Of a stretch of 38,214 nucleotides of DNA, positions 22,708-28,387 are shown piece after piece. This DNA is from an uncultured Bacteroidota bacterium (GTDB taxonomy: Bacteria > Bacteroidota > Bacteroidia > Bacteroidales > UBA12481), in NCBI GenBank assembly GCA_903919065.1, contig CAIXHD010000086.1:1-38214 (forward strand), in the 5' to 3' direction. Both the position numbers and the translations under genes were made by a program. The number at the start of each line of letters is the position of its first letter. Positions within the stretch are counted from its first letter, which is position 1. The notes under the pieces are model-generated. The model ran no database searches and was not told where the DNA came from. It saw only the letters and a program-made list of their open reading frames with translations.

Positions 22708-22828
22708 ACCCGTTTGACAGGAGAAACTACTCATTTAATCAGTTATACTGATTTAGTCGAAAAATTTATGCGTTTTGGCAAGTCATTTGCTTATGAATGG
22801 TATAAGTAATACTCAAAAATCCAAAGCC

Positions 22829-24043
22829 ATGAAAAACTTTTTAGTTTTTGCAATGATCCTGGTTACCGGCTTGACCGCTTACCCCCAGGCTACCAGGTCA
22901 GCAAAAGAAACGAAATCGGAAAGAAGCGGTACCAAAAAAGAGGCCACCCAGCGCACTTCAACAAGATCAGAAAATAAATCTGCCAACCGCTCGGCCAGTG
23001 TTGAAAAATCAAGGTCCACAAATTCCGGGGCTGCAGGAACCCGGCAGTCAGTTGAATCCCGAAGCACTCAGCGGCCCCGTACCGAGACAAAAACTACTGA
23101 TCGGCCCCGTACTGAGACAAAAACCTATCAGCGCCCACAGGAATCCCGAACCACAACCCAGAGTTCCCGTAACCGGAATGAAGGTGTACGAACCAATAAT
23201 CAAGGTTCCCGAACCAATAATCAAGGTGTTCGCACCAACACTGATGGAGCACAAAGGAGCCAGCAAACAGTAAGGCCGCAAGCAAATACCGACAAGCGTG
23301 GAGAATCGGGTAATACAATTCGCACCCAGGATCGGTCAGGTAATGATGTCAGAACAGGAAATAATTCATCTGCTACAAGAGTATTTCGTGAAGGAAAAGG
23401 AACTCTTACCCGCGGTGATGGTACTGTAATTCGCCACCAAAATGATGAGATATTTACTTCGCGCAAGTATAAGCTTGACTATGACAATTATGAAAGCCTC
23501 AGAAGATCCGACGAATTCAACCGGCATCACCATGATTATGATAACTGGTACGGGCGCAGAAGTATCCGCATTTACAACCACTATGATTATAACTACATCG
23601 CCATGCCATGGGAATGGCGCAGAAGTCTCTACTATTACCGTGCTCCGCATCACGTGAACCTTATCTGGACTCCGCTGCTTTTTCACAGGTTCATGTTCTA
23701 CTACCCGACCCAGCGTGATTGGAACATTGAATTTGGAAGTCAGATTGAAACGATTTCTGCCTATGAAGCCAAGGATTATGCCGGAACGGTAAGACAAGTT
23801 TACGGGAAAGTAGACGAGGTCTTTTATTCTCCTGAAGATGAGAACTATATACTATATATCGGAGGTGCTTTTCCCTATCATGATCTGAGTGTTGTGATTC
23901 CGAGGGATATCGCAAGAAATATCAGCATGAGTCCGAAGTGGTTCTTTGACAAGGAATTCGTATGGGTAATTGGCCTGATAAACGTATGGGAAGGAAAACC
24001 TGAAATTATTGTCCGCGATGAGGATCAGATCAGGAAGTATTAA
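22829..24043 (+). CDS. Exported repeat-rich basic protein with C-terminal OB-like domain
   Basis: 404-residue protein not assigned to a named family. The ATG at 22829 gives a clean signal peptide (MKNFLVFAMILVTGLTAYPQ); an upstream in-frame ATG at 22775 would bury it. Residues 21-200 are low-complexity and Arg/Thr/Ser/Gln/Asn-rich, with 10-residue RPRTETKT-type and 7-residue VRTNNQG-type tandem repeats, and are probably disordered. Residues 210-300 are rich in Tyr, His, Trp and Arg (for example HHHDYDNWYGRRSIRIYNHY). Residues about 308-404 look like an OB-fold: AGTVRQVYGKVDEVFYSPED, YILYIGGAFPYHDLSVVIPR, then VIGLINVWEGKPEIIVRDED, a pattern typical of small nucleic-acid-binding or envelope OB domains. 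A TonB-like gene follows after 44 nt. Role unknown; envelope location inferred. Confidence 0.7.
   Translation: MKNFLVFAMILVTGLTAYPQATRSAKETKSERSGTKKEATQRTSTRSENKSANRSASVEKSRSTNSGAAGTRQSVESRSTQRPRTETKTTDRPRTETKTYQRPQESRTTTQSSRNRNEGVRTNNQGSRTNNQGVRTNTDGAQRSQQTVRPQANTDKRGESGNTIRTQDRSGNDVRTGNNSSATRVFREGKGTLTRGDGTVIRHQNDEIFTSRKYKLDYDNYESLRRSDEFNRHHHDYDNWYGRRSIRIYNHYDYNYIAMPWEWRRSLYYYRAPHHVNLIWTPLLFHRFMFYYPTQRDWNIEFGSQIETISAYEAKDYAGTVRQVYGKVDEVFYSPEDENYILYIGGAFPYHDLSVVIPRDIARNISMSPKWFFDKEFVWVIGLINVWEGKPEIIVRDEDQIRKY
23072..23161 (+). repeat. 30-bp in-gene tandem repeat (10-residue unit)
   Basis: Three 30-bp units encode RPRTETKTTD, RPRTETKTYQ and the diverged RPQESRTTTQ at residues 82-111 of the exported protein. 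The first two units differ at only a few bases, indicating recent duplication. Confidence 0.8.
23186..23248 (+). repeat. 21-bp in-gene tandem repeat (7-residue unit)
   Basis: Three 21-bp units encode VRTNNQG, SRTNNQG and VRTNTDG at residues 120-140 of the same protein. The first two share nearly all bases, so copy number may vary between strains. Confidence 0.8.
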
Positions 24044-24087
24044 TGCTACTTTTATGCCCTATAATTTAAGATAAGGGCAGGAACAGA

Positions 24088-24840
24088 TTGGCTGATAAGT
24101 CACATATAAAATGGTTTTCAGAGAATAAGTACGGTATCTTCGGTACCGTGCTTTTTCATATGTTTTTGTTGGTAGTTATTCTCTTCATGAAGGTTAATTC
24201 TGTTCAGAAGCAACATGAAGAACTGATCTATGTTGACCTGAAGGTACTGGAAGAAATTAAAAAGATTGAAGCCGTCAAGCAGGATGCTGAAAGCAAACCA
24301 AGACCATCAGGAAGACAAGCCCGGAATATTGCAGTCAACAGATCCGAGGATAAGGTTGAAAAGTATGATGACTACAAAACCCCGCAAGCTTCAAAAAGGT
24401 CCATTGACCGTGAAGTTCAGGGGCGTGTAAACCAAGCTGTAAAGGATATAATCAGGGAGAATCATCTGAATCCGGAGGATAAGGAACTTCCTAAAGTTGA
24501 ATCCAAGCCCATCGACTTCTATCAGCCAAAAAAAATAGAAGAGGAACAGATTTACAAGGGACCGACAAATATTTACTTTAAACTGGATGACCGTAAAGTT
24601 GCTTACCTACCGATACCTGTTTATAAATGCAAGGGAGGGGCAACTGTTCAGGTGGATATTCGCGTTGGCCAGCGGGGAAAAGTTGAGTTGACAACAATCA
24701 ATAAATCTGGTACAGATACTTCGGATCCCTGCTTTCTAGATGCAGCAAAAGAAGCAGCATCCCGAACCCGGTTTAATTTCAGCACTACAGCCGCCCAACT
24801 GCAACTGGGATATATTATATACCATTTTGTAGCGCAATAG
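24088..24840 (+). CDS. TonB-like single-pass envelope protein
   Basis: 250-residue protein with TonB-like layout: short cytoplasmic N-terminus, one membrane helix (about residues 17-35, FGTVLFHMFLLVVILFM), a charged, coiled, partly Pro/Lys-rich periplasmic span (about 45-160), and a C-terminal domain with GATVQVDIRVGQRGKVELTT, DPCFLDAAKEAASRTRFNF and LGYIIYHFVAQ, which follows the strand-helix-strand pattern of TonB C-termini (xVxVxIxxdGkV ... alxxaxkxxF). Classical TonB passes proton-motive energy to outer-membrane receptors. The start codon is TTG at 24088; the next in-frame Met lies inside the membrane helix. No exbB/exbD is in view, so it may be a stand-alone paralogue. It converges on the adenosyltransferase gene with a 22-nt gap. 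Confidence 0.68.
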   Translation: MADKSHIKWFSENKYGIFGTVLFHMFLLVVILFMKVNSVQKQHEELIYVDLKVLEEIKKIEAVKQDAESKPRPSGRQARNIAVNRSEDKVEKYDDYKTPQASKRSIDREVQGRVNQAVKDIIRENHLNPEDKELPKVESKPIDFYQPKKIEEEQIYKGPTNIYFKLDDRKVAYLPIPVYKCKGGATVQVDIRVGQRGKVELTTINKSGTDTSDPCFLDAAKEAASRTRFNFSTTAAQLQLGYIIYHFVAQ

Positions 24841-25442: not shown

Positions 25443-26888
25443 TCAGAAATTAAGAATTATTTTCGAAAATCCAATACATTTATCCCCAGACCACAATCCA
25501 ATCAGGTAAATGCCCGGAGTGACGGCGCTCTTTTTTAAGTCGATGGACAGGATTCCGTTGCTTATGGAAAAGGCAGGTACTGGCAAGAGCTGTGACTTCA
25601 TATCTGAAATGAGTATTGAAGGATCAGTCATACCATCCGGAATCTTTAAATTGATTGTTCCATTGGTTGGATTGGGATAGGCAAAGATCAAAGCTGCCGG
25701 TGCCGTAACAATTTCATCAATGCCGGAATAAAATGAATCAGGTACATTTATATTGATCAACAGTCCATTGGCTGTTTTCGCATGGGTGAAGACCAGTGGA
25801 CTGGCTGAAGTGACAGACTGGATGTTTCCAGCATTCTTCAGGAGCAGACTCAAATCAAAATGCCGCAATGTTTCCGGAACATTGGTGTAATCAAGATGTA
25901 TTCTCAAAGTGGAACCTTCAATTTCGTTATGAAAAGCAACTTTATCACGAACAAGAAGATAATCCAAAACCTCACCCGATCCGGCAAACCATCCGTTGTC
26001 CTTTCCCGGGCGACCATATTTCTGTTCCATATATTCGAAATACTCCCTGAATACAGGAAATTCCAGACTGCTGGCATAGTGTTCATATTGCACCCGGTGT
26101 GTATACTCATTCCACCATTTCTGCTTTCCTATTCCAGCAGTGGCGACCCATTGATCAAAATTTGATTTCAGTGAGGTTAATGTATAATCATCGCTGTTCA
26201 AATCACGCCGCCAATAAACAGGTTCCGGGGGTACAGGAATAGTAACATCCACGACGAAATCCTTGCCGATTTCAGCACCATTTGAGGTTATACATGCCAG
26301 TAATCCCTGCTCGAAAGCCGCACTCTTGTAACCCTCATCACCATTGGGAGGGACACAAATATTAAATTTTATGCCGGTGTTAGCCTTAAAAATCCTGCTA
26401 TTTTCAGATAATTGCCATTCGTATTCAGCATTTGTCAGATCTGAGGCATGATTATAGCTATGGTTGAAAAAGTCCCAACCTGCTGAAAATAAAACTTTGG
26501 CATTATCGTATGTCAAAGTACCTGGAGTCACAAAGTGTAAGTCAACTGATTCATCATTTGCTGTGTACCATGATATTCCAGCCCGGAAAGGCAAAAGATT
26601 TCCGCAGCCATCGGTATAAAAAAGACCCGGATATGTGTTGTTATCAACAATGCCTAATCCTCCATTCAACAGTCTAAAACCCAGGTTATAAGCATCTTTT
26701 GAGGCATCGTCGAAGGTAAAGCTATAAGCAAATTCCTTGTTATACTTCAATGTTGCAGGGGTAACCAGGACATTTGAAGATAGTTGCGTATCAAATTGAA
26801 TATTAACTATCAATTCCCTTGATTGGGCTATAGTCAGGCAGGGAAAGGCTGCCAAAAGACACAGGATTAAACAGATTCTTAAACTCAT
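25443..26888 (-). CDS. T9SS-secreted NodB-like polysaccharide deacetylase (CE4)
   Basis: 481-residue secreted protein with a signal peptide (about residues 1-21, ending TIAQ). The NodB-homology part has FAYSFTFDDASKD with Asp60/Asp61 and the zinc-binding FFNHSYNH with His143 and His147, the Asp-His-His triad of CE4 deacetylases that remove acetyl groups from chitin, peptidoglycan or xylan. Residues 330-395 form a beta-rich linker domain and the last about 80 residues a T9SS sorting domain (FAYPNPTNGTINLKIPDG, GIYLIGLWSGDKCIGFSKII). It should be exported to the cell surface. Its gene lies 18 nt after the duplicated beta-barrel protein and 19 nt before the adenosyltransferase. Metal-site motifs are clear; substrate cannot be inferred. 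Confidence 0.8.
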   Translation of the reverse strand: MSLRICLILCLLAAFPCLTIAQSRELIVNIQFDTQLSSNVLVTPATLKYNKEFAYSFTFDDASKDAYNLGFRLLNGGLGIVDNNTYPGLFYTDGCGNLLPFRAGISWYTANDESVDLHFVTPGTLTYDNAKVLFSAGWDFFNHSYNHASDLTNAEYEWQLSENSRIFKANTGIKFNICVPPNGDEGYKSAAFEQGLLACITSNGAEIGKDFVVDVTIPVPPEPVYWRRDLNSDDYTLTSLKSNFDQWVATAGIGKQKWWNEYTHRVQYEHYASSLEFPVFREYFEYMEQKYGRPGKDNGWFAGSGEVLDYLLVRDKVAFHNEIEGSTLRIHLDYTNVPETLRHFDLSLLLKNAGNIQSVTSASPLVFTHAKTANGLLININVPDSFYSGIDEIVTAPAALIFAYPNPTNGTINLKIPDGMTDPSILISDMKSQLLPVPAFSISNGILSIDLKKSAVTPGIYLIGLWSGDKCIGFSKIILNF

Positions 26889-26906: not shown

Positions 26907-27848
26907 TCAGGATTGCGCCTTGATTTCCTCGATATTGATAAGAACGGGCCGGCCTTTTCGGAAATTCTGAACCAGACAGTTTATTGTTTCAGGATTGTAA
27001 AGATCAAGCTCGGTTTGCCATGTCTGGGGCTTGACTTTTATCTCCTGTCCAAACATATCAACCACTGTAATTACGGCTTCCAGTCGACCAAAAAGGTCAA
27101 TGGTTTTATGCAAGCCGGAATACTTAAACTGGTAGCTTTCGCCAATTTTATAGAATGGATGAATGGGCTCAATCAGGCATTCGCCGTTGGGTTTATATTT
27201 AACCACCATGGCCTCCAGGTTCTGTCCGGGCTTAAATCCGTAATGGATATAATGCATTAAAGGAAGTCGGTGGAAATTTCCAATAGTATCTTTTAGTACA
27301 TAGAATTCCTCGTTTTCGAATGTTTTGACATCCAATAGCTTGAATGAGTAAATCAAGCCGGCTTTGAGCGATGTGAACCTGCTTGTCATTGCCGGCAAGG
27401 ATAAAATTAGTTCACCCTTTTTTATCCTTTCAACTCGACACGCGAGGTAGCTGTATCCAGGTTCAATATCTTCAGATTTATCAATGGGGCATGACCATTC
27501 AAGTCCATGAAGATCACGAACCCAGGCGATCAATTGCGTTCGGCCCAGAAAGTTTTCTTGCTCTGCAAGCCTGAGAACAAGGAAATCATATCGCTCGCCG
27601 ATTTTATAGTAAGGATGATCGGGCTCAAGAAAGATCTTTCCGGAGCAATTTACCTTGTCAATGGTACAGGTAATGGTTTGCCCAACTTTAAGGTGGTAAT
27701 TCTCATAATATTGCTCTGGAAGAAGATATTTTTTCTTGTCGGGTCCAAGTAGAATGAAGTTTGCTTCATCAGTTCCAGGAAGCACCAACTTATTGGTAAT
27801 CTGGAATTGAAACCGTTGTCCCTCTTTATAGATTATTTCATCAGGCAT
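26907..27848 (-). CDS. Duplicated four-module beta-barrel protein of unknown function
   Basis: 313-residue cytoplasmic protein without signal peptide or membrane segment; I do not recognise a family. It is an internal duplication: LEPDHPYYKIGERYDF (about 73-89) recurs as IEPIHPFYKIGESYQF (about 229-244), and the preceding segments (KKKYLLPEQYYENYHLKVGQ and NFHRLPLMHYIHYGFKPGQ) align too. Each half seems to have two small beta-barrels: one ending EPxHPxYKIGE, then one with LFGR/FLGRxxxxxxVxDxxG and a closing strand (GELILSLP; GRPVLINIEE). The pattern of GQxxxxxVxxxxxxGxxxLEP resembles S1/OB-fold RNA-binding repeats, so nucleic-acid binding is a guess. It heads an apparent operon with the CE4 deacetylase and adenosyltransferase and is divergent from an Lrp-type regulator, 77 nt away. 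Confidence 0.7.
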   Translation of the reverse strand: MPDEIIYKEGQRFQFQITNKLVLPGTDEANFILLGPDKKKYLLPEQYYENYHLKVGQTITCTIDKVNCSGKIFLEPDHPYYKIGERYDFLVLRLAEQENFLGRTQLIAWVRDLHGLEWSCPIDKSEDIEPGYSYLACRVERIKKGELILSLPAMTSRFTSLKAGLIYSFKLLDVKTFENEEFYVLKDTIGNFHRLPLMHYIHYGFKPGQNLEAMVVKYKPNGECLIEPIHPFYKIGESYQFKYSGLHKTIDLFGRLEAVITVVDMFGQEIKVKPQTWQTELDLYNPETINCLVQNFRKGRPVLINIEEIKAQS

Positions 27849-27882
27849 ATAGCAATCACCACTCTTGCGGGCTGTAAAGATG

Positions 27883-27890
27883 CAAAATTA
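27883..27890 (-). promoter_or_regulatory. Putative -7 box of the duplicated-protein operon
   Basis: On the - strand TAATTTTG matches TAnnTTTG, 35 nt before the ATG. No good -33 TTTG is found at the usual distance. The same 77-bp gap must hold the promoter of the divergent Lrp-type gene. Confidence 0.35.
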
Positions 27891-27925: not shown

Positions 27926-28387
27926 ATGTCGGAGAGTATTAAAATTGACAGTATTGATCGTCGGATAATGAAATTGCTTTCCGAGAAAGGCAGGATTTCA
28001 TTTCTTGAAGTTGCACGCGAATGCGGTATGTCAGGAGCCGCCATACATCAGCGGGTTGCCAAATTGGAACAACAGGGAATAATAACCGGTTACAGCGTTA
28101 AGCTTTCACCAGAAAATCTTGGATTCAGCACATGCGCTTATGTTGGTGTATTTCTTGAGAAGGCGGTCATGTACCACTCTGTTGTAAAAGACCTCGAGAA
28201 GATCAGTGAGATTGTGGAATGTCATTATACCACAGGTAATTATGCTATTTTTCTTAAGGTTTATTGTAGAAATAACCAGCACCTCATGGAAGTACTGAAT
28301 GGGCGTATACAAGGGATTCCAGGGGTGGCCAGCACAGAAACCTTTATCAGTCTGGAGCACGGCATTATGCGTGATGTTCAGCCCTAA
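27926..28387 (+). CDS. Lrp/AsnC-family transcriptional regulator
   Basis: 153-residue regulator with the standard two-part layout. The N-terminal winged helix (residues 8-65) reads IDRRIMKLLSEKGRISFLEV, then MSGAAIHQRVAKLEQQGIITGY, in which the recognition helix SGAAIHQRVAKLE replaces the commoner S-x-x-T-V-x-x-R-I. The C-terminal ligand and oligomerisation domain (70-150) has the alternating strands and the VECHYTTGNYAIFLKVYC segment common to RAM/AsnC domains. Such proteins sense amino acids and regulate nearby or global metabolic genes. It is divergent from the duplicated beta-barrel operon, a plausible target, and its stop overlaps the convergent lipoprotein gene by 4 bp. Confidence 0.9.
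   Translation: MSESIKIDSIDRRIMKLLSEKGRISFLEVARECGMSGAAIHQRVAKLEQQGIITGYSVKLSPENLGFSTCAYVGVFLEKAVMYHSVVKDLEKISEIVECHYTTGNYAIFLKVYCRNNQHLMEVLNGRIQGIPGVASTETFISLEHGIMRDVQP

Follow-up and report, generated by a model that had tools for sequence, protein, structure and literature searches.

A predicted four-barrel, S1/OB-like protein family of Bacteroidales and its genomic linkage to RelA/SpoT genes

The window, the whole stretch of 38,214 nucleotides from an uncultured member of the Bacteroidales that was analysed here, raises the question of which kind of protein is encoded on its minus strand at positions 26907-27848 and in which cellular process it might take part. This open reading frame starts with ATG and yields a product of 313 amino acids; its reading as the gene of a four-barrel protein draws on the ORF list, family searches and the fold predicted by AlphaFold. 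Inspection of the 313-residue protein by eye revealed no evident signal peptide. A search of its own genome returned one copy of the gene, and a weak further match (E 0.52) with two internal stops was dismissed as chance. The gene is under purifying selection as judged from the comparison with the relative L001 (dN 0.038, dS 1.74, dN/dS 0.022), with dS near saturation for this pair and not computable for the remaining five of the six pairs. An earlier note on this DNA, made from the sequence alone, had assigned the protein to no known family, and this still holds: no Pfam or NCBIfam family scored above its cut-off, solved structures contained no sequence relative, and none of the PADLOC anti-phage models matched the window protein or two single-unit relatives. 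Individual scans of 27 single-unit relatives gave scattered weak matches and nothing more. The titles and abstract openings covered by a literature search outside subscription papers and preprints held no description of the family.

Repeat hierarchy and predicted fold

The motif (L/I)EPxHPxYKIGExYxF is present twice in the protein, as LEPDHPYYKIGERYDF at residues 74-89 (27582-27629, minus strand) and as IEPIHPFYKIGESYQF at residues 226-241 (27126-27173, minus strand). The earlier note had placed the two copies about 155 residues apart; both were found, but their exact spacing is 152. Its observation that the flanking segments align as well was confirmed. The BLOSUM62 local score of one half against the other was 141; 2000 shuffles averaged 29.6, peaked at 58 and never reached 141. 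HHalign aligned the first-half and second-half profiles of 38 two-unit proteins (doubles) end to end with a probability of 100 and an E-value of 1.7e-44. Barrel profiles, obtained by cutting each half at the linker, revealed a second level of homology. Barrel A matched B (probability 97.7, E 1.5e-12), A' matched B' (97.7, E 2e-12) and, within single-unit relatives, A again matched B (97.5, E 7.9e-12); the values for A against A' and for B against B' were 99.8 (E 1.3e-29) and 99.6 (E 3.4e-24). Seven reversed decoys in the barrel-against-barrel comparisons stayed at or below 3.9%, and all these E-values are pairwise ones, not from database searches. Since A and B are themselves homologous, the protein represents one barrel doubled twice, and the simplest history suggested by the sequences would lead through two successive doublings from one OB/S1-like barrel to an A-B unit and on to A-B-A'-B'.

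On the minus strand of the window, barrel A comprises residues 4-79 (27612-27839), its homologue B residues 80-156 (27381-27611), A', the copy of A, residues 158-232 (27153-27377) and B', the copy of B, residues 233-309 (26922-27152). All four are delimited by the predicted fold and HHalign, and for A by the alignment of residues 1-78 to S1 domains; the two motif copies are read as the A-B and A'-B' linkers. AlphaFold2, run on the window protein with a shallow alignment of seven close sequences, predicted four five-stranded barrels with a mean pLDDT of 81.7 and a pTM of 0.45, so that the individual barrels are modelled with confidence and their mutual arrangement is uncertain. In the model, barrel A is composed of strands at residues 12-22, 29-34 and 40-44, a helix at 45-51 and strands at 58-66 and 72-76. 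It would display the S1/OB trait of five strands, the third and fourth of which are connected by a helix; this helix was not assigned in B. Unit 1 modelled alone (seven rows) reached a pLDDT of 64.2 and was excluded from the fold search.

The earlier note had read the protein as an A-B-A'-B' array of small barrels resembling S1/OB arrays and had named profile-profile search and structure prediction as checks. Both were carried out, and the homologous halves together with the four predicted five-stranded barrels bear this reading out. Further support comes from a second look with VIA-align: among the matches listed, S1 domains and EF-P prevailed with Z values of 6-8 (best 7.9), middling values that are common for small barrels. 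The S1 matches listed include bS1, RNase II/R, exosome subunits and NusA, which have in common with the four-barrel protein the five-stranded barrel, the helix between strands 3 and 4 of A and the tandem array. The protein differs from them in lacking a Pfam S1 match, in its own DKINCxG...EPxHPxYxxG signature and in a nearly invariant A-B link. EF-P, itself composed of tandem small barrels, aligned with residues 163-307 at Z 7.2-7.3 and an rmsd of 6.5-6.9 (5.9-6.9 at Z about 7), which is high across the barrel pair, and without a sequence match. Foldseek placed HIN-200, telomere-end proteins and LEF-3 in its top rows, with E-values from 1.6e-6 to 4e-4; they share tandem OB folds but are eukaryotic or viral DNA-binding proteins with TM-scores below 0.3 and 7-14% identity. 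In profile comparisons with S1 domains from four Bacteroidales genomes, HHalign probabilities were 39 for A, 50 for A', 12 for B and 1.6 for B', a weak similarity, and neither SSB nor reversed decoys exceeded 0.9%. No similarity to SSB (PF00436) emerged in any of the four barrels (probability 0.1-0.7). Neither the window protein nor the 27 singles matched PF00575 (S1) above the Pfam cut-off, and the best S1-type match was S1_RRP5, whose E-value was 0.045 with the window protein and 5.4e-4 with one of the singles. Overall, the protein is S1/OB-like by its predicted fold and lies outside the Pfam S1 family by sequence.

Conserved signatures, spread and history of the family

Relatives with a single unit of about 155 amino acids exist, and conservation was therefore computed separately over 33 singles, 38 first units and 38 second units; three contig-end members (L107, L110, L113) were omitted from the unit analyses. 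Positions E75, P76, H78, P79, Y81, Y87 and F89 are conserved at 0.79-1.00 in all three sets. Positions D64, K65, N67 and C68 reach 0.76-1.00 in singles and first units and at most 0.39 in second units, in which another residue can be the most frequent one. DKINCxG is thus retained in unit 1 and singles and lost from unit 2, and EPxHPxYxxG is retained in both units. In the window protein, the former signature reads DKVNC (residues 64-68; 27645-27659, minus strand) and, from alignments and the model, occupies the β4-β5 turn of barrel A; its invariant Cys68 sits between strands 58-66 and 72-76 of the AlphaFold model. In OB folds, the turn between these strands often lines the ligand cleft. Based on its restriction to singles and first units and on the position of Cys68 in this turn, DKINCxG is probably the working site and EPxHPxYxxG probably a linker. 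EPxHPxYKIGE, the motif singled out in the earlier note, is kept in every unit and is best read as the connection between barrels, with the adjacent DKINCxG as the likely functional signature. Three loci (L087:5701-6249, L092:5380-5910 and L102:5992-6543) make up a diverged second paralogue group from two taxonomic families; RIDC and RLDC replace KINC in L087 and L092.

The earlier note had suggested to determine the phylogenetic spread. Of 295 genomes sampled from the order, 73 matched the protein query, and the single-unit profile gave an equal count (73/295); in a phylum sample of 395 genomes the own genome matched and none of the 394 others did. As far as sampled, the family is so far limited to one order. 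The 73 carriers contain 76 loci, namely 40 doubles from 22 taxonomic families and 36 singles from 19 (contig ends truncate three of the singles), and both forms were found in three taxonomic families. The isoelectric point is not decisive: it is 6.3 in the window protein, and the medians of doubles and singles are 7.6 and 8.8. In a tree of the units, from which two doubles with a poorly resolved second unit (L068, L104) were omitted, the second units fell nearly together with two label changes; first units (11 changes) and singles (10 changes) were intermixed in a part of the tree that is poorly resolved. This fits either one old duplication after which unit 2 was lost repeatedly, or an origin from singles with one duplication. 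A viral or mobile origin was considered and rejected, as neither alignment confirmed a relative among viral contigs, tblastn gave no match in plasmids or phages, and PADLOC matched nothing.

Gene neighbourhood and linkage to RSH genes

At the window locus, the four-barrel gene stands between a divergent Lrp/AsnC-type regulator gene (27926-28387, plus strand; identified from the ORF and domain scans) and, downstream, a gene for a polysaccharide deacetylase-like protein whose C-terminus carries a T9SS sorting tail (25443-26888), followed by a PduO-type cobalamin adenosyltransferase gene. In some relatives the deacetylase gene is likewise located between the four-barrel and adenosyltransferase genes, in others it is absent. 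The earlier note had considered this context unusual. Both neighbours are real, but they are confined to the window's taxonomic family and near relatives: the deacetylase gene occurs at five loci, all in or near that family, and the Lrp-type gene is a neighbour in that family only and is not counted as a component of the system. A deacetylase/Lrp operon was consequently rejected as general functional context. Upstream of the four-barrel gene, an intergenic alignment of five loci revealed the conserved sequence TTTTGCATCTTTACA (27873-27887, minus strand; the conserved block is also delimited as 27873-27890), which together with preceding bases reads TAATTTTG. The Bacteroidetes -7 promoter box has the consensus TAnnTTTG; the block resembles it and is probably the promoter of the four-barrel gene. 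Elsewhere in the window, two adjoining plus-strand ORFs at 22775-24840 encode 422 and 250 amino acids without a Pfam match, the 422-residue one being rich in Ser/Arg/Thr repeats.

The recurrent neighbour across the family is a RelA/SpoT (RSH) gene. A same-strand RSH gene lies within 2 kb of the family gene in 19 of 73 carrier genomes from 10 of 37 taxonomic families. In 14 of these genomes it is upstream, in 5 it is downstream, and it shares the strand of the family gene in 19/19. These RSH genes are long; 17 of the 19 are located within 205 bp, with three overlapping. At operon spacing (-60 to 100 bp), RSH genes were found at 16 loci in nine taxonomic families, compared with two for the next commonest neighbour. 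The linkage is absent from 54 of the 73 carrier genomes including the window's own, with some unlinked loci cut by contig ends.

Two RSHs per genome are usual in the order, and the linkage is specific for one of them in the 11 linked cases tested. In a tree of 29 rows (32 matches minus two without locus and one short ORF, L142), 14 RSHs with HDVVED formed a clade with a support of 100 that contains none of the linked RSHs. Outside this clade fell the 11 linked RSHs (11/11) and four unlinked ones, each with a degenerate hydrolase motif. Synthetase, TGS and ACT domains were present in the four hydrolase-degenerate RSHs scanned. The linked enzymes resemble Bacteroidetes RshB, a lineage-specific RSH duplicate with a diverged HD domain according to Atkinson et al. 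2011 (PMC3153485). In Porphyromonas, the copy without key hydrolase residues has been called Rel, and both enzymes are reported to contribute to ppGpp (PMC6994654); the two papers use RSH names differently. The likeness to RshB and to the Rel/BT0700 type (PMC6994654) concerns the neighbour, and neither is a homologue of the four-barrel protein.

An obligate partnership with the RelA-like RSH is not supported. Among carriers with one RSH, 13/14 keep only the HD-intact enzyme, and the 93% complete genome G246 carries the family without a match to the RelA/SpoT synthetase domain; the family therefore does not need a RelA-like RSH. By hand count, 15/73 carriers and 55/222 non-carriers have at most one RSH, so that presence of the family does not go with a low number of RSHs. 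A diverged copy beside RSH was not found at 20 RSH loci from 11 non-carrier genomes, where the best same-strand neighbour had an E-value of 5.2. In three non-carriers (L164, L170, L178), the gene immediately upstream of the RSH with the degenerate hydrolase is FloA-like, a name given by sequence likeness, and part of the RSH synteny may hence be inherited. Downstream of HD-intact RSH, a gene judged by eye to encode a Fur-family-like regulator was noted at six loci (L161, L165, L169, L176, L177, L179). A tree of poor resolution shows about 11 changes of the linkage label and so allows neither one ancient pairing nor multiple new pairings to be demonstrated.

Possible functions

The frequent adjacency to the gene of a ppGpp-making enzyme suggests a role in the starvation response, although this tie is statistical and not obligatory. 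We tentatively favour a nucleic-acid-binding, S1-like protein that assists translation or the stringent response, for which we estimate a probability of roughly 40% and in which we infer both the binding of RNA or ribosomes and the functional tie to ppGpp. The protein would most likely reside in the cytosol, bind RNA or ribosomes and act as an accessory factor with the translation or stringent-response machinery. Because unit 2 keeps EPxHPxYxxG and loses DKINCxG, unit 1 would carry the working site; unit 2 may provide added surface or affinity, and singles may serve the same function by themselves or as dimers. In many genomes it would be co-expressed with the RelA-like, hydrolase-degenerate RSH, and it could sense or present the state of RNA or the ribosome or tune the output of the RSH. 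That it is the first dedicated partner of this Bacteroidales RSH, with RNA or ribosome state relayed through DKINCxG of unit 1 to ppGpp synthesis, appears doubtful to us.

A general RNA-binding or ribosome-associated factor of S1- or EF-P-like kind, without a dedicated ppGpp tie and with an inherited or opportunistic RSH adjacency, has a real if minority chance of being correct. It would agree with the carriers that lack a RelA-like RSH, with the many unlinked carriers, with the FloA-RSH synteny of non-carriers and with other gene contexts of the family, which comprise AIR-synthase-family (SelD-like), isochorismatase-family and beta-CASP nuclease genes. It does not account well for operon-spaced RSH genes in so many more taxonomic families than any other neighbour, nor for an RSH that is upstream in some genomes and downstream in others, shares the strand in every case and is one paralogue in 11 of 11 cases tested. 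A ligand, metal or redox sensor is improbable, in which Cys68, the near-invariant Cys61 and His78 would form a site in barrel A whose state is relayed to a partner: Cys68 is present in all singles and first units, and conservation in these two sets is 0.79 and 0.97 for Cys61 and 0.97 and 0.82 for His78, but some singles lack Cys61 and the Pfam and NCBIfam scans of the window protein and 27 singles matched no sensor family. Least probable is a DNA-binding OB array for single-stranded or duplex DNA, to which the top Foldseek rows point, since VIA-align ranks S1/RNA proteins first, an SSB-like profile signal is absent and the recurrent neighbour is RSH and not DNA repair.

Taken as an RNA- or ribosome-binding accessory factor or otherwise, the protein belongs to a well-conserved family that is unnamed in the libraries searched and whose repeat history is readable from sequence. 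Its architecture is as the earlier note saw it and more regular, to which we add the homology of A and B, and with it the double doubling, and the existence of single-unit relatives. If the tie to the RelA-like RSH is true, the family would show how a second ppGpp synthetase is controlled in Bacteroidales, which are abundant anaerobes.
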